Source of the DNA: Luteibacter rhizovicinus DSM 16549 | GTDB taxonomy: Bacteria; Pseudomonadota; Gammaproteobacteria; Xanthomonadales; Rhodanobacteraceae | Direction: 5' to 3' | Length of the DNA stretch: 64,000 nt | NCBI RefSeq assembly: GCF_001887595.1 | Contig: NZ_CP017480.1 | Span: 372,001-436,000, forward strand | Part shown: one piece after another, positions 2,886 to 46,093 of the stretch | Layout: each line of letters begins with the position of its first letter | Numbering within the stretch: the stretch's first letter is position 1 | Position numbers and translations under genes: made by a program | Notes under the pieces: generated by a model | The model's input: only the letters and a program-made list of their open reading frames with translations | The model's database searches: none | What the model was told of the DNA's origin: nothing

Positions 2886-3452
2886 ATGACGATCGCCAAT
2901 ACATTCGCGGGGCAATTCCTCATCGCGATGCCCTCCCTCGCCGAACCTCCGTTCGCGCGCGGCGTCGCGTTTCTTTGCCAGCACGGCGAAGACGGAGCGG
3001 TCGGCCTGCTGATCAATCAGATCTCCGAATATCGTCTCGGCGACGTGCTCGCGCAGATGAAACTCGGCTGCGAAGACCCGGAGATCGCGGACTACCCCGT
3101 CCTCATCGGCGGCCCCGTGCAACAGGAGCGCGGCTTCGTGCTTCACCGCGAGCCGGGTCGCTGGGACTCGAGCTACCGTGTCAACGAAGACTGGTCCGTC
3201 ACGACCTCGCGCGACATCCTCGTCGCGATGGCCAAGGGCGAGGGCCCGCGCCGGGCCGTCGTCACCCTCGGCTACGCGGGCTGGGAAGCCGGCCAGCTCG
3301 AGCAGGAAGTCATGGACAACGCCTGGCTGACGACCCGCGCCGACGAACGCATCATCTTCGACACCCCCCTCGACGAACGCTGGACCGCCGCCGCGCGCAA
3401 GCTGGGTGTCACCGACCCCTCCCAGATCGCCGGCTATGCCGGCCACGCCTGA
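2886..3452 (+). CDS. yqgE: YqgE/AlgH family protein
   Basis: 188-residue member of the UPF0301 family, a conserved cytosolic protein without a firmly known activity. Seen are the N-terminal signature GQFLIAMPSL, the segment GAVGLLINQ, GGPVQQERGFVLH and the C-terminal ALGYAGW-like VTLGYAGWEAGQLEQE. The ATG at 2886 follows AATGAGGCC and matches family N-termini; earlier in-frame codons encode no conserved sequence. It is followed after 12 bp by ruvX, the pairing seen in most gammaproteobacteria. Confidence 0.95.
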   Translation: MTIANTFAGQFLIAMPSLAEPPFARGVAFLCQHGEDGAVGLLINQISEYRLGDVLAQMKLGCEDPEIADYPVLIGGPVQQERGFVLHREPGRWDSSYRVNEDWSVTTSRDILVAMAKGEGPRRAVVTLGYAGWEAGQLEQEVMDNAWLTTRADERIIFDTPLDERWTAAARKLGVTDPSQIAGYAGHA

Positions 3453-3464
3453 GCACGGGGCGCG

Positions 3465-3884
3465 ATGAGCTGTCTGTTCGGATTCGATGTCGGGACGAAG
3501 ATGGTCGGCGTCGCCGTCGGCAATCGACTGACTGGCACGGCGCGCGCGCTGGCCGCACTTCCCGTCCGCGACGGCGAGCCCGACTGGCAGGCCCTCGACA
3601 CGCTCCGCCGCGAGTGGCTGCCTGCCGAACTCGTGGTCGGTCTGCCGCTCGATAACGAGGGCAAGGAACAACCCATGACGCGCACTGCGCGCCGCTTCGC
3701 CGAACGCATCGGCGAGCGCTACGGGTTGCCGGTCGCCTTCGCCGACGAGCGCATGAGCTCGCAGGAAGCGGCACGCCGTTTTGCCGCCGCGCGCGCGGCC
3801 GGCACGCGCAAGCGCTCGGACGTGAAGTCGATCGACGCCGAAGCGGCGGCCGTGATTCTTGAAACGCATCTCGCCCAGTTCTGA
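3465..3884 (+). CDS. ruvX: RuvX/YqgF pre-16S rRNA nuclease
   Basis: 139-residue RNase H-fold protein; the family is implicated in 5' maturation of 16S rRNA and was earlier called a putative Holliday junction resolvase. Active-site features are visible: the first Asp in LFGFDVGTKMVGVAVGN, the GLPLDNEGKEQPMT loop (usual form GLPLNMDGTEQP) and the second acidic motif FADERMSS. The C-terminal DAEAAAVILETHL provides the last acidic residues. It lies between yqgE (12 bp) and pyrB (33 bp) in the same orientation, so an operon is likely. Confidence 0.94.
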   Translation: MSCLFGFDVGTKMVGVAVGNRLTGTARALAALPVRDGEPDWQALDTLRREWLPAELVVGLPLDNEGKEQPMTRTARRFAERIGERYGLPVAFADERMSSQEAARRFAAARAAGTRKRSDVKSIDAEAAAVILETHLAQF

Positions 3885-3917
3885 TCCCGCTCCATTGCCC
3901 TTGAGGACGTCGACGTC

Positions 3918-4844
3918 ATGTCACAACGCCTGCGCCACCTGACCACCCTCGAGAACCTGCCGCGCGAAACCATCGAGCGTTTGCTAGACCGTGCCAACAG
4001 CATGCGCGAGGCAACCGCGCACGGCACGCGCAAGCTCGACCTGCTCGGCGGACGAACCGTGCTCAACCTGTTCTTCGAGCCTTCCACCCGCACGCGCACC
4101 TCGTTCGAACTCGCCGCGCGGCGGCTGGGTGCCGACGTGATCAACTTCGACATCGGCTTCTCGTCGACCGCCAAGGGCGAGGAGCTGTTCGACACCTTGC
4201 ATACGCTCGAAGCCATGCACCTGGACACGATCATCGTCAGGCACAAGGAGTCGGGCACGCCCGATTCGCTGGTCAAACACGCGATGAGCGGCGTATCCGT
4301 CGTAAATGCCGGCGACGGCAACCGCGCCCACCCGACCCAGGGGCTGCTCGACGCGCTGACCATCCGCAACCATCACCCGGACTTTCGCAAGCTGCGCATC
4401 GTGATCTGCGGCGACGTGCGCCACTCACGCGTCGCCCGCTCCGACGTGCATGCGTTCACGGCGCTGGGTGCGAAAGATGTTCGCCTCGTCGGTCCGTCGT
4501 CGCTGCTGCCGGCGGAAGGCGAACTGGAAGGCGTGAGCCTCTACGAGGACTTCGATCAGGCGATCGAGGGTGCCCATGCCGTCATCATGCTGCGACTTCA
4601 GAAAGAACGCATGGCGACCACGGACCTGCCCGACGAGGCCGCCTATTTCGAGCGTTTCGGCCTCGACACGCAACGCCTCGCCCGGGCCGCCAAGGGCTGT
4701 CTGGTCATGCATCCCGGCCCGATCAACCGCGGTATCGAGATCGCCACCGATGTCGCCGATGGCGCCCAGTCGCGCATCCTCGAGCAGGTAGGCAACGGCG
4801 TGTTCGTGCGCATGGCGGTACTGGCCGAGGTGATGGGACGCTGA
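3918..4844 (+). CDS. pyrB: Aspartate carbamoyltransferase catalytic subunit
   Basis: 308 residues, the standard catalytic-chain length. It condenses carbamoyl phosphate with aspartate in pyrimidine synthesis. The carbamoyl-phosphate motif FFEPSTRTRTSFELA is at about residues 53-67, followed by GDGNRAHPTQGLLD and the C-terminal loop MHPGPINRGIE that contributes to the active site. In Pseudomonas pyrR and a pyrC-like gene flank pyrB. Neither is present here, so no attenuation-type PyrR control is evident. Confidence 0.96.
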   Translation: MSQRLRHLTTLENLPRETIERLLDRANSMREATAHGTRKLDLLGGRTVLNLFFEPSTRTRTSFELAARRLGADVINFDIGFSSTAKGEELFDTLHTLEAMHLDTIIVRHKESGTPDSLVKHAMSGVSVVNAGDGNRAHPTQGLLDALTIRNHHPDFRKLRIVICGDVRHSRVARSDVHAFTALGAKDVRLVGPSSLLPAEGELEGVSLYEDFDQAIEGAHAVIMLRLQKERMATTDLPDEAAYFERFGLDTQRLARAAKGCLVMHPGPINRGIEIATDVADGAQSRILEQVGNGVFVRMAVLAEVMGR

Positions 4845-4912
4845 TCCCGCGCCCGGCCCGGCTTCCGGCATAATGGCCGGACCAAGGGACAACTCAAACA
4901 ATGGGATACGAA

Positions 4913-6661
4913 ATGCGACCGACGAAGCGACTCATCGCGCTCGGCGTCGCCAGCGTGCTGCTGGCGGCCTGCGGCCACAAGGACAAGGACGCCCCGCTGG
5001 CCTTCGTGCCGGCCGACACTCCGTACGTTGCGGCCAGCCTCGACAAGCTGGACGACGATGCCTATGAGGCCATGCTCAACCAGGTCAACACCGAGTTGCC
5101 CAGCCAGGTCGCCCAGATGAAGGCGGTCGCCCTGGACATGGAAGCCAAGGGTAATGTGGATGGCTCCCACCTGATGAAGGCCGTGGCCGCCGAGTTCGAC
5201 GGCAAGACCGCCGAAGCGGCGCTGAAGAATCTTGGCCTCGACGTCAAGACCGGCTCAGCGATCTACGGCCTGGGCCTCAGCCCGGTGGCGCGTGTGTCGC
5301 TCGCCGACCCGGCCGCCTGGGACGCCTTCGTCGGCCGCCTCGAGACGGCTTACGGCAAAAAGCTGGACGCCGGCGACGCCGGTGGCCAGGCGTACCGCCA
5401 TGTCGCCATCTCCGACACCGGCATCCAGCTGGTCATCGCCACCGTGGGCAAGCAGGCGGTGGTCTCGCTGCTGCCGGCCGATGCCGCGCAGCCGTTGATC
5501 CGTCAGGCCCTGGGCGCCGACCGCCCGGAGAAGAGCCTTCAGGACGACGGTCGCCTTGCCGATCTCGCCAAGGACAAGGGCTACAAGGATTACGCCGTTG
5601 GCTTGCTGGATCTCACGCGCCTCCTGCCGCTGATCGCGGCAGGCAAGGACCCGCTCTTTGCCGCCTTCATCAAGCAGCAGTCGGTGAAGACGGGTGAACC
5701 CGCGCCCGTGCTCCCGCCCAGCTGTCAGACCGAGGCATCGCGCATCGCCGCGCGCGTACCGTCGATCAGCTTCGGCTACACCAAGCTCGATCTTCACCAC
5801 CAGAACCAGCGTGTCGACATCGCTCTCGCCGACGACGTCACCAAGGCGTTCTCGGGCCTGAAGGTGGAACTCCCGGGCCTGGGCCAGGATGCCAGCGCGC
5901 CGTTCGACGTCAGCCTCGCGCTGCCCGTCGAGCAGATCCGCACGTTCATGACCACGCAGTCCGAATCCGTCGCCGCCAAGCCGTTCGAATGCCCCGCGTT
6001 CGCCAGCATGAACGACAGCTTCACCAAGCTCGGCTCGACCATGCAGCAGGCAGCGATCCCGCCGTTCGGCGATATCCGCGGTGTGCGCATCGTCATCGAC
6101 TCGTTCAAGCCGGCCGCCTCGGCAACGCAGGTGCCGCAGGTCACCGGTCGCGTCGTGCTCGCCACGCGCAATGCCCCGGGCCTGCTTGCCATGGGCCAGG
6201 CCGTGCTCGGCGGCGACTTCAAGCTGGCCGGCGACGGCAAGCCGGCTGCCCTGCCCGCGAACATCGTCGGCATGCTCGGCATGCCGGGTTGGGCTGCGAT
6301 GAATGGCCAGGCCATCGCGATCGGCGTAGGCCTTGGCGAAGACGCCAAGCTCGACGAAGTGCTGATGGCCAGCACCGGCGATGCCGGTCGTCTCAGCCGC
6401 ATGCACCTCAATGGCGACATGTATCGCGCCTGGGTCGACGTGATGGCCGACAAGGCGAAGGCCTATGCCAGCGCCATGACGACCGCTGCGGGCGCCGACG
6501 GTGCACCGGACAGTCAGGCCGAGGACACGGCGGCCGCCGAGCGTTCCAAAGCCCAGTTCGACTCCATGAAGGCACAGGCTACCCGCGTGGTGCAGGTGTC
6601 CGGTGAAGCTCATATGGAAGAGAAGGGCCTGGTGATCTCGGGTGCCGTTGAATACAAGTAA
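4913..6661 (+). CDS. Large lipoprotein of unknown function
   Basis: Not recognised. The 582-residue product starts with MRPTKR, a hydrophobic stretch and the lipobox LLAAC (Cys at about residue 20). It should therefore be lipidated, and Gly at +2 suggests outer-membrane sorting. The mature part begins with a charged KDKD segment and then PADTPYVAASLDKLDDDAYE, and is rich in Ala, Gly and Asp. One pair of cysteines (PSCQTE and FECPAF) could form a disulfide. No enzyme motif was seen. A start at 4901 (four residues longer) is possible, but 4913 gives the more usual signal peptide. A strong terminator follows immediately, so transcription ends here. Confidence 0.8.
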   Translation: MRPTKRLIALGVASVLLAACGHKDKDAPLAFVPADTPYVAASLDKLDDDAYEAMLNQVNTELPSQVAQMKAVALDMEAKGNVDGSHLMKAVAAEFDGKTAEAALKNLGLDVKTGSAIYGLGLSPVARVSLADPAAWDAFVGRLETAYGKKLDAGDAGGQAYRHVAISDTGIQLVIATVGKQAVVSLLPADAAQPLIRQALGADRPEKSLQDDGRLADLAKDKGYKDYAVGLLDLTRLLPLIAAGKDPLFAAFIKQQSVKTGEPAPVLPPSCQTEASRIAARVPSISFGYTKLDLHHQNQRVDIALADDVTKAFSGLKVELPGLGQDASAPFDVSLALPVEQIRTFMTTQSESVAAKPFECPAFASMNDSFTKLGSTMQQAAIPPFGDIRGVRIVIDSFKPAASATQVPQVTGRVVLATRNAPGLLAMGQAVLGGDFKLAGDGKPAALPANIVGMLGMPGWAAMNGQAIAIGVGLGEDAKLDEVLMASTGDAGRLSRMHLNGDMYRAWVDVMADKAKAYASAMTTAAGADGAPDSQAEDTAAAERSKAQFDSMKAQATRVVQVSGEAHMEEKGLVISGAVEYK

Positions 6662-29143: not shown

Positions 29144-29593
29144 TCAGGCTCTACAGAGCCTGGGAATGTCGATGAGGGCGATGAAGCCGTCGTCGCGGGT
29201 GATGACGCCGCTGACCGGGTCGTCGCGGCGAGTGGCGCGGCCCGGGGGCGGCGGTGCGACGTCGGCGGGGTTGAACTCGAGCATGTCGCCGATCACGTCG
29301 ATGCGCATGCCGACGATGCTGCCCGAGTCGTCGAAGACGATGACGCGCTGGGCGTCTTCGTCGGCGACGTCGATGCGACCTTCGAGGCCGAAGCGACGAC
29401 GGCCGTCGAGCACGGGCACGATCTGGCCGCGCAGGTTGACGATACCGAGGACATCCTCGGGCGCGCCCGGCACGGGGGTGATGTCGCCGCAGCGGATCAC
29501 CTCACGTACGCTGGCCAGGGACACCGCATAGCGCTGCCCCTTCAGGGAAAATCCAAGCCAGGCACCACGCCCGTCGCGTTGGGGTTCGGTCAC
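29144..29593 (-). CDS. cheW: CheW chemotaxis coupling protein
   Basis: 149 residues, a CheW fold linking receptors to CheA. Typical segments are LGFSLKGQRYAVSLASVREV, ITPVPGAPEDVLGIVNLRGQ and PVLDGRRRFGL. The GTG at 29593 overlaps the stop of the preceding parP (GTGA) and starts where homology starts. Confidence 0.93.
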   Translation of the reverse strand: MTEPQRDGRGAWLGFSLKGQRYAVSLASVREVIRCGDITPVPGAPEDVLGIVNLRGQIVPVLDGRRRFGLEGRIDVADEDAQRVIVFDDSGSIVGMRIDVIGDMLEFNPADVAPPPPGRATRRDDPVSGVITRDDGFIALIDIPRLCRA

Positions 29594-30159
29594 GGGCCCA
29601 GCTCCTTTTCCAGCCATTCGATCAGCGCCGCGGTACCGACCACGCCGCACTTGGGTTCTTGGGACATGCCAGCGAGCCACGGACGCGTGGTCGCGCCCTT
29701 GCGCCATTGGATCGCCGTGGCGTCGAGTTCCACCGGCTCTTCGTCGACGATGCAGGCCAATGCCCAGGCACGGTCGCCCAGCAGGATCAGGGTGGGCGAA
29801 TGCGCGCCAGCCATGTCCGGCGAGAGGATCGCAGCGAGGTCGGCCACGCGTGCGACACCACTCGGATGGCGCCAGCGTCCGAGGCAAATCGGATTCGTCG
29901 TGTTCGGCGGCGTCAACGGCGGCATCGGCAGCATATGGGTGATATCGGACATCGGCACGGCAAGACGCACGCCGGCCGCAAGACAGAGCAGATAGCGGCT
30001 ATCGGCCGACGTCGGCGGCTCGGCGTTTGGCACGGTGCGCCAGGGGTCGATCGAAACGACCTTGACCTCGGCGTCCGGTGCCGGTGCAGGCAAGGCAGGT
30101 GTCAGCAGCTCCGCCAGGTAGTCGGCGACGATCTGCTCGGCGTCCTGCAGGGCGCGCAT
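29590..30159 (-). CDS. parP: ParP-like CheW-domain protein
   Basis: 189 residues. A Pro/Ala-rich N-terminal part (about 1-55) precedes a CheW-like domain beginning SRYLLCLAAGVRLAVPMSDI. By position, directly after the ParA-like gene and before cheW, it corresponds to ParP, which ties chemotaxis arrays to the cell pole by binding ParC and CheA. This is known from Vibrio and Pseudomonas and inferred here. The start may be GTG 30162 or ATG 30159; both overlap the parC stop. Confidence 0.85.
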   Translation of the reverse strand: MRALQDAEQIVADYLAELLTPALPAPAPDAEVKVVSIDPWRTVPNAEPPTSADSRYLLCLAAGVRLAVPMSDITHMLPMPPLTPPNTTNPICLGRWRHPSGVARVADLAAILSPDMAGAHSPTLILLGDRAWALACIVDEEPVELDATAIQWRKGATTRPWLAGMSQEPKCGVVGTAALIEWLEKELGP

Positions 30160-30947
30160 CACGCCGCCGCATCCGCGACGGAGGTGGCCGGCGAGGCCAG
30201 CAATTCGTCGAGCAACTGCCGGTAAGCCAGGCCACCGCGACGCGCAGCTGGCCAGGATGCCAGGGGCACGCCCGCCGCGCTCGCTTCACGAATCTGCGTA
30301 TCGGTCGGGATAACGGCGTGGCTGACGCCGTCGCTGTACTTCTCGCGCAGTTGCTCGAGGCAGGCTCGCGAGGCATGCGTGCGTGCGTCGAACATCGTCG
30401 GCACGATGGTGCGCGGCAGCGGTCGGCCGCGCGAGCGCTCGATCATGGACAGGCTGCGCAGCATGCGCTCGAGACCTGCGAGGGCCAGTGCTTCGGTCTG
30501 CGTCGGCACGAGCAAGCGGTCGCTCGCGGCCAGCGCGTTGACCATCAATACGCCGAGGGTCGGCGGGCAGTCGAGCAAGACGTGATCGAAATCACTGGCG
30601 AGTTCGGCGAGCGCCTTGGCAAGGATCAAGCCCATGCCCGGCCGTGTGCCGAGCTGGCGATCCAGCGTGATCATCGCCGCGGACGCCGGCAGCACGCTGA
30701 GGTGATCCCACTTCGTGGCATGCACGAGCGTGCCAGCTGGCAACGGATTGCCACCGATGCCGAACAGGTCGTAGACGCTGCCATGCGCGCCACCTTCGAC
30801 GCCGATGTAGCCGGACAGCGAGGCGTGCGGATCCATGTCGATCAGCAGCGTGCGCTTGCCGGAAGCAGCGAGAAGACTACCTAACGCAACGGTCGTCGTG
30901 GTCTTGCCTACCCCACCTTTCTGGTTGGAGACCGCCCAGACGCGCAT
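30159..30947 (-). CDS. parC: ParC, ParA/Soj-family ATPase for polar chemotaxis arrays
   Basis: 262 residues. It has the deviant Walker A motif SNQKGGVGKTTTTVALGS, the switch LLIDMDPHASLSGYIG and the DHVLLDCPPTLGVL motif of ParA proteins. In polar flagellates this family member positions CheA-receptor arrays at the old pole, and the location within the che operon supports that over plasmid partitioning. The start overlaps the motD stop (TGATG). Confidence 0.92.
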   Translation of the reverse strand: MRVWAVSNQKGGVGKTTTTVALGSLLAASGKRTLLIDMDPHASLSGYIGVEGGAHGSVYDLFGIGGNPLPAGTLVHATKWDHLSVLPASAAMITLDRQLGTRPGMGLILAKALAELASDFDHVLLDCPPTLGVLMVNALAASDRLLVPTQTEALALAGLERMLRSLSMIERSRGRPLPRTIVPTMFDARTHASRACLEQLREKYSDGVSHAVIPTDTQIREASAAGVPLASWPAARRGGLAYRQLLDELLASPATSVADAAA

Positions 30948-32650: not shown

Positions 32651-34819
32651 TCAGACAGCCATCCTTAGTGAAGGCAGCACCTGGCCCGCATCGTCGGCGA
32701 GGCCGGCGAGGTCGAGCACGAGGGAGATGCGGCCATCGCCGGTGATCGTCGCGCCTGCGACGCCCGGGACATCCTTGAGGAACGGACCCAGCGGCTTGGC
32801 CATGACGTCTTCGCGGCCGAGCACTTCGTCGACCAGGCAACCGAGTGTCTGGTGGCCGATCTGCACGACGACGACGTGACCGCCCTTCCCCGCCGCGCCG
32901 GCCCAGTTGCCGAGGTCGGCAAGCGGCAGCGCGCGCTGGCGATGCGAGGCGACAATGCGACCGTCCAGTTCCTGGATCTGGCCCGGCACGAGTTCGAACA
33001 CTTCGGTGACGTTGGACAACGGCAGCGACAGCAGGCGATTACCGACGCGAACCATGAGCACGCGCATGATCGCCAGGGTAAGCGGTACCGAGAGACGGAC
33101 CGTGCTGCCATGGCCGACGCGCGAGTCGATCGAGAGCGTGCCGCCGAGTTCGACGATCTTGGTCTTGACCACGTCCATGCCGACGCCTCGGCCGGAAATA
33201 TCCGAGACCTCGGCCGCGGTGGAGAAACCGGGACGGAAGACGATTTCGTAGCACTCGCGCTCATCCAGACGCGCCGCCTGCTCTTCGTCCATCAGGCCTT
33301 TTTCGACGGCCTTCCGACGCAGGACCTCGGGATCCATGCCCTTGCCGTCGTCGGTGACGGTGATGACGATGCGGTCGCCGAACTGGCCGGCGGCCAGGCG
33401 AACCGTGCCGGAGCGCGATTTGCCGGCGCGTTCACGCACGTCGGGCATCTCGATGCCGTGGTCTACCGCGTTGCGAAGCAGGTGCACCAGCGGATCGGCC
33501 AGCGCCTCGACCACGGTACGGTCGATATCGGTGTCTTCGCCCTCGGTGACCAGCTCGATGTCCTTGCCGAGCTGACGCGCGAGGTCGCGGATGATGCGGG
33601 GGAAACGCGAGAAGAGTTTGCCCACCGGCTGCATGCGCATGCGCAACACGGCGTTCTGCAGATCTTCGGCGACGCGCTCGAGTTCACCGATGGCGCGTTC
33701 CATCGGGTCGTTCGTGCCGCGCGGCGCGAGATTGGTCAGGCGGTTGCGGACGAGTACCAGCTCGCCTGCGGCATCGACGAGGCTGTCGAGGCGGAAGGTG
33801 TCGACGCGGACGGTGGTGTCGGCCGTTGACGAGGCGCGTTTTTCGGTGGTGGCTGTGGGTTTTGCGGTGGGAGCCGGTTTTGCTGGTGGGGTTGCGGCGG
33901 CGGGGATCGCCGATGAATCGGCTCCTACAGGGGTAGTGGACGCTACGGCGGGTTGGATCGCCGATGAATCGGCTCCTGCAACAGCGGTGGCCGGCGTGAG
34001 CGTGCCGGGGGCGGCGGTGCCGTGGAGGCTGTCTAGGAGGGCCTCGAATTCGTCGTCGCTGATGGCGTTGGGATCGGCGGCGGGCATCGCCGCCGAAGCG
34101 GCTCCCACAGATGGCGCTTCGGCGATCGGTGTTGCGGTGGCCGGGATCGCCGCTGAAGCGGCTCCCACATTTGCCGCCGCCCCTGCAGGGGCGGCGGCAT
34201 CGGCGCCGGGGGCACCGGTGCCGTAGAGCGAATCCAGCAGCGCTTCGAATTCATCGTCGTTGATCGTGCCCGAAGGTGTCGAGGCCGGTGCGCGGTCGTT
34301 GCGCGCGGCGTCGAGCATGGCTTCGAATTCGTCTTCGATCGGATCGTAGGGGCGCTGCGACGACACGGCGGGGGCGCTGGTCGACGCCGGCGTCGACATC
34401 ACCGGCGACAGCGCCACCGGCGGTGCGGAGCCGGCACGACCCGGAATCAGCAGGCGGTCGAGCACGGAGCGAGGCGCGGGCTCGGCGGGAACGCCCGCGT
34501 CGGCCGCACGCATCATGTCGTTGAGGAGGTCCAGCGACTCGAGCAGCGCATCCATGAAGCCGGGGTTCAACACCACCGCGCCGTTACGGGCCTCGTTGAG
34601 GAGGTCCTCGGCGCGGTGGCACAGCTCCACCATGGCGTTGAGGCCCAGAAAGCCCGCACCGCCCTTCACGGTATGGAACGCGCGGAAGACCGCGTTCAGC
34701 AGCTCGGCGTCCCCCGGCGAGGCTTCGAGATCCACGAGCTGTTCGCCCAGGCTCTCGAGCAGTTCGCGTGCTTCGATCAGGAAGACATTGAGCAGCTCGT
34801 TGTCCAGCTCCACGCTCAT
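32651..34819 (-). CDS. cheA: CheA chemotaxis histidine kinase with unusual linker
   Basis: 722 residues. The HPt domain (about 1-105) has the phospho-His at 49 (AFHTVKGGAG). No P2 domain is recognisable. Residues 110-335 form an Ala/Pro-rich linker with three related peptides, EDEFEAMLD (162-170), DDEFEALLDSLYG (188-200) and DDEFEALLDSLHG (255-267), plus four REP-encoded segments. Dimerisation and the HATPase domain follow (LLRNAVDHGIEMPD, DDGKGMDPEVL, SGRGVGMDVV), then the CheW-like regulatory domain (about 580-722). It phosphorylates CheY. The start MSVELDNELL at 34819 is eight bases after the cheZ stop. Confidence 0.95.
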   Translation of the reverse strand: MSVELDNELLNVFLIEARELLESLGEQLVDLEASPGDAELLNAVFRAFHTVKGGAGFLGLNAMVELCHRAEDLLNEARNGAVVLNPGFMDALLESLDLLNDMMRAADAGVPAEPAPRSVLDRLLIPGRAGSAPPVALSPVMSTPASTSAPAVSSQRPYDPIEDEFEAMLDAARNDRAPASTPSGTINDDEFEALLDSLYGTGAPGADAAAPAGAAANVGAASAAIPATATPIAEAPSVGAASAAMPAADPNAISDDEFEALLDSLHGTAAPGTLTPATAVAGADSSAIQPAVASTTPVGADSSAIPAAATPPAKPAPTAKPTATTEKRASSTADTTVRVDTFRLDSLVDAAGELVLVRNRLTNLAPRGTNDPMERAIGELERVAEDLQNAVLRMRMQPVGKLFSRFPRIIRDLARQLGKDIELVTEGEDTDIDRTVVEALADPLVHLLRNAVDHGIEMPDVRERAGKSRSGTVRLAAGQFGDRIVITVTDDGKGMDPEVLRRKAVEKGLMDEEQAARLDERECYEIVFRPGFSTAAEVSDISGRGVGMDVVKTKIVELGGTLSIDSRVGHGSTVRLSVPLTLAIMRVLMVRVGNRLLSLPLSNVTEVFELVPGQIQELDGRIVASHRQRALPLADLGNWAGAAGKGGHVVVVQIGHQTLGCLVDEVLGREDVMAKPLGPFLKDVPGVAGATITGDGRISLVLDLAGLADDAGQVLPSLRMAV
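33905..34169. repeat. Four REP elements inside cheA, all in one frame
   Basis: Copies at 33905-33930, 33956-33980, 34085-34110 and 34145-34169. The first two are the GCCGATGAATCGGCTCC type, the others GCCGCNGAAGCGGCTCC. Starts are 51, 129 and 60 bp apart, all multiples of three. On the coding strand they give VGADSSAIPA, AGADSSAIQP, VGAASAAMPA and VGAASAAIPA. They sit only in the flexible linker of CheA, so the kinase stays intact. Confidence 0.93.
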
Positions 34820-34826
34820 ACGGCGC

Positions 34827-35471
34827 TCAGAACCCGAATTCGCTGAGCAGTCGATCCACTTCGTCCTGGCTGACCTTGTCCGGGGCCGGTGCGTGTGCGC
34901 CACCGGCCAGCGAACCAGTGAGACGCACCAGTTCGACCAGCGACGACTCCACCTTGGCCATGAACGATTCGACCTGCGCGACGCGCTGGCCGGACAGATC
35001 CTGCCAGGACTGGGCCTCGACCATCTCGCCCAGGCCGATGTCGCAGCTCTGCGCGAAATCGCCGACGCGCACGGCCAGGGCCGTCGCATTCGGTGCGAAG
35101 GCCGGATCGGCGTGATCGAGCACCAGCACTTCGTCGGCCTGCTTGGCCAGCGCCTGCGCCTGAGGACGCAGCCTGTCGCTGAAATCGAGGGTGCGGTGAG
35201 CCGCCTGTGAGCTCATCTCGAGCACGTCGCGCAGGTGTTTGCGCGCATCGCTCATGTTGCCCGGCACGCCATCGCTGGAGATATCGGAGGCCAGACGGCG
35301 GACCGACTCGTGCAGATCGCGCGCAAGATGGCCCAGGGCCAGGAACAGGTGCTGTTCACGGCTGCGCAGGAGGCGATCGAGCGCCTGTTCGAAGGCGACG
35401 CTGTCATCGGCGTCGAGCAACTCGCGCAGCTCGGGAACGACCTCGTGGCCGGGGTTAAGCATGGTATTCAT
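34827..35471 (-). CDS. cheZ: CheZ, CheY-P phosphatase
   Basis: 214 residues, an all-helical dimer. The catalytic helix region includes EMVEAQSWQDLSGQRV, where the Gln of DLSGQRV is the expected active residue. The C-terminal CheY-binding tail is SQDEVDRLLSEFGF. It removes phosphate from CheY. The ATG at 35471 is spaced six bases from AAGGGA; the ATG at 35477 is too close to it. It follows cheY after 10 bp. Confidence 0.94.
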   Translation of the reverse strand: MNTMLNPGHEVVPELRELLDADDSVAFEQALDRLLRSREQHLFLALGHLARDLHESVRRLASDISSDGVPGNMSDARKHLRDVLEMSSQAAHRTLDFSDRLRPQAQALAKQADEVLVLDHADPAFAPNATALAVRVGDFAQSCDIGLGEMVEAQSWQDLSGQRVAQVESFMAKVESSLVELVRLTGSLAGGAHAPAPDKVSQDEVDRLLSEFGF

Positions 35472-35481
35472 CGTCATTCCC

Positions 35482-35871
35482 TTAGCCCGCAGCCGCGGCG
35501 AGTCGTTCGAAGATCTTGTCGAGCTTTTCCTTCAGCGTGACCGCCGTGAACGGCTTGACCACGTAGCCGTTCACGCCGCTCTGCGCGGCGGCGATGATCT
35601 GGTCGCGATTGTTCTCGGCCGTGACCATCAGCACCGGCATCGACTTCAGCGCGGCGTCCGCGCGGATCGCGCGAAGCAGGTCGATGCCCGTCATGTTGGG
35701 CATGTTCCAGTCGGTCACCACCAGGTCGAAAGGCTGGGCACGCAACATCGTGAGCGCCGCGTTGCCGTCTTCAGCCTCCTGGATGAGGGTGTTCGTAAAT
35801 CCCAGCTCGACCAGGAGATTCCTGACGATGCGTCGCATGGTGGAGAAATCGTCCACCACGAGGATTTTCAT
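35482..35871 (-). CDS. cheY: CheY chemotaxis response regulator
   Basis: 129 residues, single receiver domain. It has the acidic pocket in [12 protein letters not shown], phospho-Asp in [12 protein letters not shown], the switch Thr in LMVTAENN and the Lys in GYVVKPFT. CheY-P binds FliM to change motor rotation. The ATG at 35871 matches family N-termini; a TTG four codons upstream is possible. A hairpin (GACGGCA, loop, TGCCGTC) lies at 35919-35938 before the gene. Confidence 0.95.
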
Positions 35872-35936
35872 GTTCTTGTCCAAAACTCGTCTCCGCCTGA
35901 CTGCGCGTTCTTACCGGCGACGGCACCGTAATGCCG

Positions 35937-45070: not shown

Positions 45071-46093
45071 TCACACCAGCTCAGGCATTGGCTCGGTCGT
45101 GGTGATCGGCATGGCCTTGGTCTCGCCGCGCTTGCGCATCAGCGAATCGAACTGGATGGCCTTGTTGCCGTTGGAGTTGGCCATGCGGCCACGGAAGATC
45201 GGCACGTCCTCGGCGAAGATCGTGGCGAACTCCGGCAGGCTGATCGGAATGACATCGCCCTTGCGCAGGTGCAGGAAGTCGCCGATGGTCAGGCGCGCCT
45301 CGGCCAGCATGGAGGTCACCTCCACTTCCGCATCGAGGATTTCCTCGTGCAGGTTCTGGATCCAGCGCTCGTCGCGCTCGGCCCGGTCACTCTGCACGCC
45401 GGCATCGAGCAACTCGCGGATCGGCTCGACCATCGAATACGGCAGGGTCAGGTGCACTTCGCCGCCGCCGCCGTCGAGCTCGATATGGAAACGCGAGACG
45501 ACCACCGTCTCCGTCGGGCTGACGATGTTCGCGAACTGCGGATTGATCTCGGAGTTGAGAAACTCGAACTGCATCTTCAGTACAGGCGCCCAGGCTTCGG
45601 CCATGGCCGTGAAGGCTTCCTGCAGCACGATCTGGATCACGCGGTTCTCGGTCGGGGTAAAGTCCCGACCTTCGATACGTGCGTGATAGCGGCCATCGCC
45701 ACCGAAGAAATTGTCGATGACGGTGAACACCAGGCGCGGCTCGAACACCATCAGCGCGGTGCCGCGAAGCGGCTTGATGCGGATCAGGTTGAGGTTGCTC
45801 GGCACGGCCAGCGAGTGTACGTACTCGTTGAACTTGGTCATCTTCACACCAAGCACCGAGACTTCGCAGGACTTGCGCAACACGTTGAACAGGTTGGCGC
45901 GGAAATAACGGGCGAAACGGTCGTTGACCATTTCCAGGGTCGGCAGGCGTCCGCGGACGATCCGGTCCTGCTGGGTGAAGTCGTAGTCGTGAATGCCACC
46001 GGGCGGCGGAAGCTCGATCTCGGTTTCGACCGCACCGCCTTCCACGCCCGCCAGGAGGGCGTCGATTTCTTCCTGGGTAAGGATGTCACTCAT
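45071..46093 (-). CDS. fliM: FliM, C-ring switch protein
   Basis: 340 residues. The N-terminal CheY-P-binding peptide is LTQEEIDALLAG. The middle CheC-like domain and C-terminal SpoA domain (DVPIFRGRMANSNGNKAIQF) follow. CheY-P binding here starts the rotation switch. It lies 15 bp after fliL. Confidence 0.96.
   Translation of the reverse strand: MSDILTQEEIDALLAGVEGGAVETEIELPPPGGIHDYDFTQQDRIVRGRLPTLEMVNDRFARYFRANLFNVLRKSCEVSVLGVKMTKFNEYVHSLAVPSNLNLIRIKPLRGTALMVFEPRLVFTVIDNFFGGDGRYHARIEGRDFTPTENRVIQIVLQEAFTAMAEAWAPVLKMQFEFLNSEINPQFANIVSPTETVVVSRFHIELDGGGGEVHLTLPYSMVEPIRELLDAGVQSDRAERDERWIQNLHEEILDAEVEVTSMLAEARLTIGDFLHLRKGDVIPISLPEFATIFAEDVPIFRGRMANSNGNKAIQFDSLMRKRGETKAMPITTTEPMPELV

Follow-up and report, generated by a model that had tools for sequence, protein, structure and literature searches.

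How does a CheA kinase that lacks a P2 domain recruit CheY? More than half of surveyed CheAs have no P2 domain and carry an unstructured stretch between the Hpt and the dimerization domain (Berry et al. 2023, PMC10782961). In its accessible portions, that survey considers docking by P2 dispensable and describes no motif in its place (PMC10782961). The CheA that we analyzed is encoded in a window of 64,000 nucleotides from the genome of Luteibacter rhizovicinus DSM 16549 (the whole stretch of DNA under analysis), and its linker contains three copies of a short acidic motif. Based on the comparisons presented below, we consider it reasonably probable that in the CheA class of the window such repeated short peptides, putatively CheY-binding, stand in for P2.

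The cheA locus and the search for a P2 domain

The gene order at this flagellar and chemotaxis locus is cheY-cheZ-cheA-two mot-like genes-parC-parP-cheW (Table 1), and the names FliM, ParC and ParP in the window are ones that we assume from likeness and position. The CheY is close to CheY3 of Vibrio cholerae (3to5; 2.3e-54) and very near to CheY of E. coli as well. In CheA, Pfam (E<=1) identified Hpt (residues 8-99), H-kinase_dim (335-394), HATPase (442-581) and CheW (587-710), and the three motif copies lie inside the Ala/Pro-rich linker of about 218 residues (109-326). The class of this CheA is probably the one named F6 in the literature. Among the F6-type features, the Hpt, dimerization, HATPase and CheW-like domains are all present, as are the genes of an F6-type neighborhood (cheY, cheZ, parC, a parP-like gene and cheW), which is presumably a defining trait of F6.

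Table 1. Features of the chemotaxis locus and of the CheA linker, by position in the window.
Feature	Position	Strand	Remarks
CheW	29144-29887		
ParP-like protein	29590-30162	minus	CheW-like domain; adjoins ParC
ParC-like ParA-family ATPase	30159-30947	minus	
cheA	32651-34819	minus	722 aa; Hpt, linker, dimerization, HATPase, CheW-like; without detected P2
Four REP-like elements (GTGGGAGCCGCTTCAGCGGCGAT family)	33906-33928, 33957-33979, 34086-34108, 34146-34168	minus	
Motif 3, DDEFEALLDSLHG	34019-34057	minus	CheA residues 255-267
Motif 2, DDEFEALLDSLYG	34220-34258	minus	CheA residues 188-200
Motif 1, EDEFEAMLD	34310-34336	minus	CheA residues 162-170; degenerate, without LHG tail
CheZ	34827-35477		Pfam CheZ at residues 43-216
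CheZ C-terminal peptide, VSQDEVDRLLSEFGF	34830-34874	minus	CheY-binding type; FliM-profile rank 2nd
CheY	35485-35874	minus	near V. cholerae CheY3 and E. coli CheY
FliM	45071-46093		
FliM N-terminal peptide, MSDILTQEEIDALLAG	46046-46093	minus	CheY-binding type; FliM-profile rank 1st

Neither the P2 family (PF07194) nor the CheY-binding family (PF09078) was found in the window CheA with Pfam at E<=1, and a genome-wide search with both families gave no match in the genome of the window. As positive controls, the P2 family matched in B. subtilis, T. maritima, Haloferax volcanii and Methanosarcina acetivorans, and the CheY-binding family matched in E. coli. Since Pfam lists P2 in none of 20 control CheAs, and is therefore a weak test by itself, we derived a P2 profile of our own from 13 of these controls, chosen by eye, with the consequence that the hits of these 13 to the profile are true by construction. 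A sequence search of the PDB with this profile found no chain. Its link to Pfam P2 was therefore established by L269, a sequence that reaches 25.7 bits with the Pfam family (cut-off 23) and matches the profile at 1.6e-29. The best match of the profile to linkers of the CheA class was only E=0.36 in the first set of genomes and only E=0.08 in the named set (both described below), and a profile-profile comparison of the linker with P2 returned a probability of 0.4 of 100. As far as these three kinds of profile evidence reach (Pfam, our own profile and profile-profile comparison), a hidden P2 domain in the linker is rejected, in agreement with the original prediction, in which none was evident between the Hpt and the dimerization domain.

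The repeated linker motif and its distribution

The motif copies were scored with a profile trained on relatives (the first set), the window CheA being outside the training. Motifs 1, 2 and 3 scored 10.2, 46.0 and 48.0, respectively, and the best score among 1,980 shuffled linkers was -0.2, so that both position and score against shuffles bear out the claim that the three peptides recur in the CheA linker. Within the core DDEFEALLDSL shared by copies 2 and 3, 7 of the 11 codons differ synonymously, which is the number that had been put forward from the sequence, and over 17 codons 7 are the same, 7 are synonymous and 3 are non-synonymous. Three copies are also present in 118 of 120 proteins from a search with the linker (the window CheA counted in, the best 120 of 925 matches), and among those 120 the homologues bearing names are foremost from Luteibacter. 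Because of the synonymous differences in the core and the wide occurrence of three copies, a recent DNA duplication is not supported as the origin of copies 2 and 3.

The linker part of the coding sequence also contains four REP-like elements (Table 1), which sit on the same strand and in the same frame as cheA and give linker peptides of the V/AGA(A/D)S(A/S)A(I/M) type. Their pattern has 454 exact matches in the genome, and a reversed-pattern control has 0. Peptides of this type occur in 31 of the 120 listed proteins, with the window CheA counted in and again among the best 120 of 925 matches.

A comparison by codon with Luteibacter jiangsuensis (L189) found that, of the 34 codons of motifs 2 and 3 together, 18 are identical, 15 differ synonymously and 1 differs non-synonymously, and that the remaining linker has 41 identical, 43 synonymous and 65 non-synonymous codons and 20 gaps. 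Since the motif codons are mostly identical or synonymous, it is the peptide that appears to be conserved rather than the DNA, as the original prediction had proposed. In four further relatives (L190, L192, L204 and L235), motifs 2 and 3 have 7-9 non-synonymous codons of 33-34, and the remaining linker, in an alignment that is gappy there, has more non-synonymous codons than the motifs. Judged from these substitution patterns, purifying selection acts on the codons of the motifs, and the remaining linker drifts.

In order to define the CheA class, 276 gamma-proteobacterial genomes were searched with the P3-P5 part of CheA, and the limit was placed at a gap in the scores between E=5.5e-111 and 8.1e-103, the class thus consisting of best matches at E of about 1e-110 or better. 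Above the gap were 107 genomes (own genome excluded), from which the loci of 100 were read (the first set) and seven were left out (G032, G044, G072, G173, G190, G240 and G266). The linker could be delimited in 95 of the 100 loci, there being no alignable Hpt in L039, L058, L060, L064 and L117. All 95 readable linkers contain the motif at a score >0, a level reached by none of the 1,980 shuffled linkers (one copy in 5, two in 41, three in 42 and four in 7), a result that is partly circular because the motif profile was trained on this same set. At a looser threshold, there is one copy in 4 linkers, two in 31, three in 52, four in 7 and five in one. The consensus reads I-[TS]-[DE]-[DE]-E-F-E-A-L-L-D-x-L-H-G, and an alignment of 96 members shows an invariance of 90% or more at E, F, L, L and D in copy 2 and at I, E, F, L and D in copy 3, with nearly all other columns of the linker below that level.

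Outside the training of the motif profile are the window itself, a named set and a phylum set, the last of which repeats six of the training genomes. The named set comprises the best 80 of 572 confirmed loci, with L229 dropped; it was gathered by patterns outside the linker, yet ranked by a query that contains the linker. The motif is present in 79 of its 79 linkers (two copies in 8, three in 57, four in 12 and five in 2), from genera that include Vibrio, Photobacterium, Shewanella, Pseudomonas, Marinobacter, Dyella and Rhodanobacter. For the phylum set, 199 genomes gave 29 loci that were read (L283-L311), one matching genome (G282) being left out, and 27 of the 29 loci have two to four motif copies, the six genomes shared with the first set included. 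The motif profile found no motif in the two weakest loci of this set, L310 and L311, of which the former (E=1.5e-107) is of the same class but just beyond the score limit that we used for it, and the latter is another CheA class of the phylum. All 13 of the P2-bearing control CheAs also lack the motif by this profile; among the other 7 of the 20 controls, two (L140 and L151) carry a single motif without P2 and five have neither. The repeats are shared across the CheA class and are not local to the genome of the window, and with 95 of 95, 79 of 79 and 27 of 29 linkers in the three sets, the conservation in relatives for which the original prediction had proposed to look is present.

Likeness to FliM and CheZ and predicted structure

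To compare the motifs with known CheY-binding peptides, we used a profile made from 29 FliM N-termini and no CheA sequence. It was run over 70,063 twelve-residue peptides from the open reading frames of at least 100 aa in the 64-kb window, and placed FliM itself 1st, the CheZ C-terminus 2nd, and CheA motifs 3 and 2 in the 3rd and 6th positions, respectively; motif 1, at a score of 6.6, fell outside the top 12. The FliM and CheZ peptides in the window read as they had been quoted. Among 1,463 open reading frames of the 100 loci, the top 100 for the FliM profile consisted of 42 CheA, 42 CheZ and 16 others, and the best site of a CheA fell within its linker in 81 of 88. For a profile of CheZ C-termini, only 5 CheA were among the 100 best of the same 1,463, at a median CheA rank of 280, and since this profile does not favor CheA, the likeness is primarily to FliM. 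The proposed likeness therefore stands, as a FliM-type pattern, for motifs 2 and 3, which the FliM profile finds; it is weak for motif 1, and the profile of CheZ tails does not favor CheA.

Common to the FliM N-terminal peptide, the CheZ C-terminal peptide and the CheA motifs is the pattern [DE]-E-[FIV]-[DE]-x-L-L. Unlike the two tails, the CheA motifs are internal and repeated, have F at the key hydrophobic position and an LHG tail, and lie within a kinase. The accessible text of work on Vibrio describes CheZ and FliM as using one common face of CheY (PMC3774744). From the resemblance of the peptides, we think it likely that the linker repeats of CheA bind CheY.

In classical CheA, CheY and CheB alike dock on P2, as described in the accessible part of one source (PMC10542144), and several copies could serve several clients; the motifs might accordingly dock some other response regulator (the receiver of CheB or CheV, or an output regulator) and not CheY. 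We give this very little credence, given that what the motifs resemble is FliM and CheZ, both of which bind CheY. A structural explanation, by which the linker is a flexible spacer and its motifs are generic acidic amphipathic helices like those of Pfam SHOCT, with a structural or oligomerizing role, seems to us improbable, if less so. Pfam SHOCT (PF09851) does match, at E<=1, 88 of the 96 members in the alignment (best 6.6e-9), and 4 of 120 listed homologues (the best 120 of 925) have SHOCT in precomputed Pfam (P0092, P0098, P0105 and P0106). However, the window CheA reaches 17.7 bits with this family, below the cut-off of 27, and the FliM profile is order-specific, as its scores for motifs 3, 2 and 1 are reached by 4, 11 and 33 of 20,000 shuffles of the motif, respectively. 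The SHOCT consensus presumably leaves the LLDxLHG half of the motif unaccounted for. The SHOCT entries in the four listed homologues are probably the CheA motif under another name.

Predicted structures were obtained for the Hpt and linker of a relative, L116, with AlphaFold2 and an alignment of 42 rows. In this model, the Hpt helices extend to residue 107 and are closely followed by one short helix (117-126); the only helices in the rest of the linker, 186-198, 220-231 and 268-278, all coincide with motifs (block pLDDT 68-83). There is no P2 fold in the L116 model of Hpt and linker, and no helix at the first, degenerate motif (block pLDDT 55). A single-chain model of a CheY-CheA read-through has helices at four of four motifs, with block pLDDT of 84, 84, 76 and 90; these values are higher than with CheA alone at motifs 1 and 4, about the same at motif 2 and lower at motif 3. 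Because alignment and block phase were not the same in the two runs, and neither coordinates nor contacts were readable, the pLDDT changes are at most a hint of CheY docking. An earlier mixed CheY-CheA alignment was set aside, its CheA rows seemingly having been placed on CheY columns (14-24% identity). The best 50 of 1,362 rows of a Foldseek search with the read-through model show CheY, either by itself or as part of a complex that contains it.

In L116 (nt 2908-3484), the cheY and cheA frames are 147 nt apart and in the same frame, with no CheZ match between them. In two other loci, L137 (nt 3157-5676) and L135, cheY is directly upstream of cheA and no match to CheZ lies close by. A single stop codon separates the two open frames of L137, which are in phase. 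These two loci belong to genomes of one genus without detectable ParC (G152 and G020), and their CheA has one motif copy. A divergent CheZ can escape the match test, as it does in L118 and L125.

ParP as an alternative partner and a proposed mechanism

The linker of Vibrio CheA has a stretch called LID that, in the accessible portions of two studies, is said to bind the AIF domain of ParP, to be found only with ParC and ParP and to sit within the Hpt-P3 stretch, immediately ahead of P3 (PMC5706961, PMC7534058); one of them puts it between P2 and P3 (PMC7534058). LID and the motif array share the same Hpt-P3 stretch in the same kind of CheA, and Vibrio CheAs of the class (L250 and L257) have three motifs in that stretch, where no P2 was found. 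Because the same linker thus holds LID, described as ParP-binding, docking of a partner other than CheY is a live rival. The motifs could be LID or a part of it, in which case they would dock ParP by its CheW-like AIF domain, tether CheA to the pole anchor ParC and not be sites for CheY; the window does encode ParC and a ParP-like protein. We judge this unlikely, though it is the rival that we take most seriously.

The rival was weighed against genomes without ParC. ParC is missing at 24 of the 100 loci, and genome-wide searches found it elsewhere in 13 of the 24 genomes (E<=3.3e-63); in the other 11, the genome-wide matches were only of the strength of ordinary ParA paralogues (best 6.4e-42 to 1.1e-30), for which the second ParA of the own genome, at 7.5e-35, served as the yardstick. 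These 11 genomes provided 10 readable linkers (L117 was unreadable), and since the motif is kept in 10 of 10, it is not tied to ParC. The HG tail is present in 8 of the 10, and in L132 the motif is degenerate (scores of 13.2 and 10.5). LID is described as binding ParP, whereas the motif array is present also without detectable ParC, and this retention lowers the case for LID as the sole meaning of the motifs. Binding to ParP would, moreover, leave the likeness to FliM and CheZ unexplained. A search for ParP covered eight of these 11 genomes and gave best matches of 2.2e-30 to 3.5e-14, values to be read with the proviso that the profile does not tell a divergent ParP from CheW; in G010, a CheW-like neighbor of ParC scores only 5.0e-11 with the ParP profile.

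In one family (f50, comprising L118 and L125), the motif reads ITDDEFEALLNQRD or ITDEEFExLLQMRE, so that the LHG tail is gone and ITD[DE]EFExLL is kept. Both f50 genomes are without detectable ParC, and the other genomes lacking it retain HG. The loss of LHG in L118 and L125 counts in favor of LID and hints that the LHG tail might serve ParP. It is possible that CheY and ParP both dock on one linker.

Returning to CheY docking by the repeats, the parallel is with the P2 domains of E. coli and T. maritima CheA (PF09078 and PF07194), which occupy the same site between Hpt and dimerization domain and for which the proposed role of holding CheY is the same. Unlike those domains, the linker has no detected fold and no sequence or profile relation to them that we found, and consists of a disordered stretch with short repeated peptides that are predicted to be helical. 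In the mechanism that we propose, one to five copies of the motif (mostly two or three) would be strung along the disordered linker beside the phosphate-donor Hpt, each copy would fold into a short helix as predicted, and this helix would sit on the alpha4-beta5-alpha5 face of CheY, as suggested by its likeness to the N-terminus of FliM and the C-terminus of CheZ. CheY would in this way be kept close to the phosphohistidine of Hpt, and CheA would compete directly with FliM and CheZ. Peptides of the FliM type favor phosphorylated CheY (CheY-P), and P2 favors unphosphorylated CheY; by analogy, a dock of the FliM type might trap the product instead of helping with loading, which counts against the proposal. 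If the repeats share the preference of FliM for the phosphorylated form, they could retain CheY-P after transfer, which the presence of several copies could offset by raising capture. Our estimate is evenly balanced for the fuller proposal that a class-wide, multivalent array of FliM/CheZ-type motifs replaces P2, that kinase, motor and phosphatase share one peptide code and compete for one face of CheY, and that copy number (mostly 2-4) tunes the capture of CheY.

Literature searches, including four spellings of the motif, found no report of it, and the work that defined LID may hold an earlier description. If the proposal is true, the CheA class of Pseudomonas and Vibrio docks CheY by a repeated linear motif, in a code common to FliM and CheZ. 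Kinase, motor and phosphatase would then be predicted to be in direct competition, for which an assay with one peptide would be available, and linker mutants that were made for work on LID and ParP may also alter phosphotransfer to CheY.
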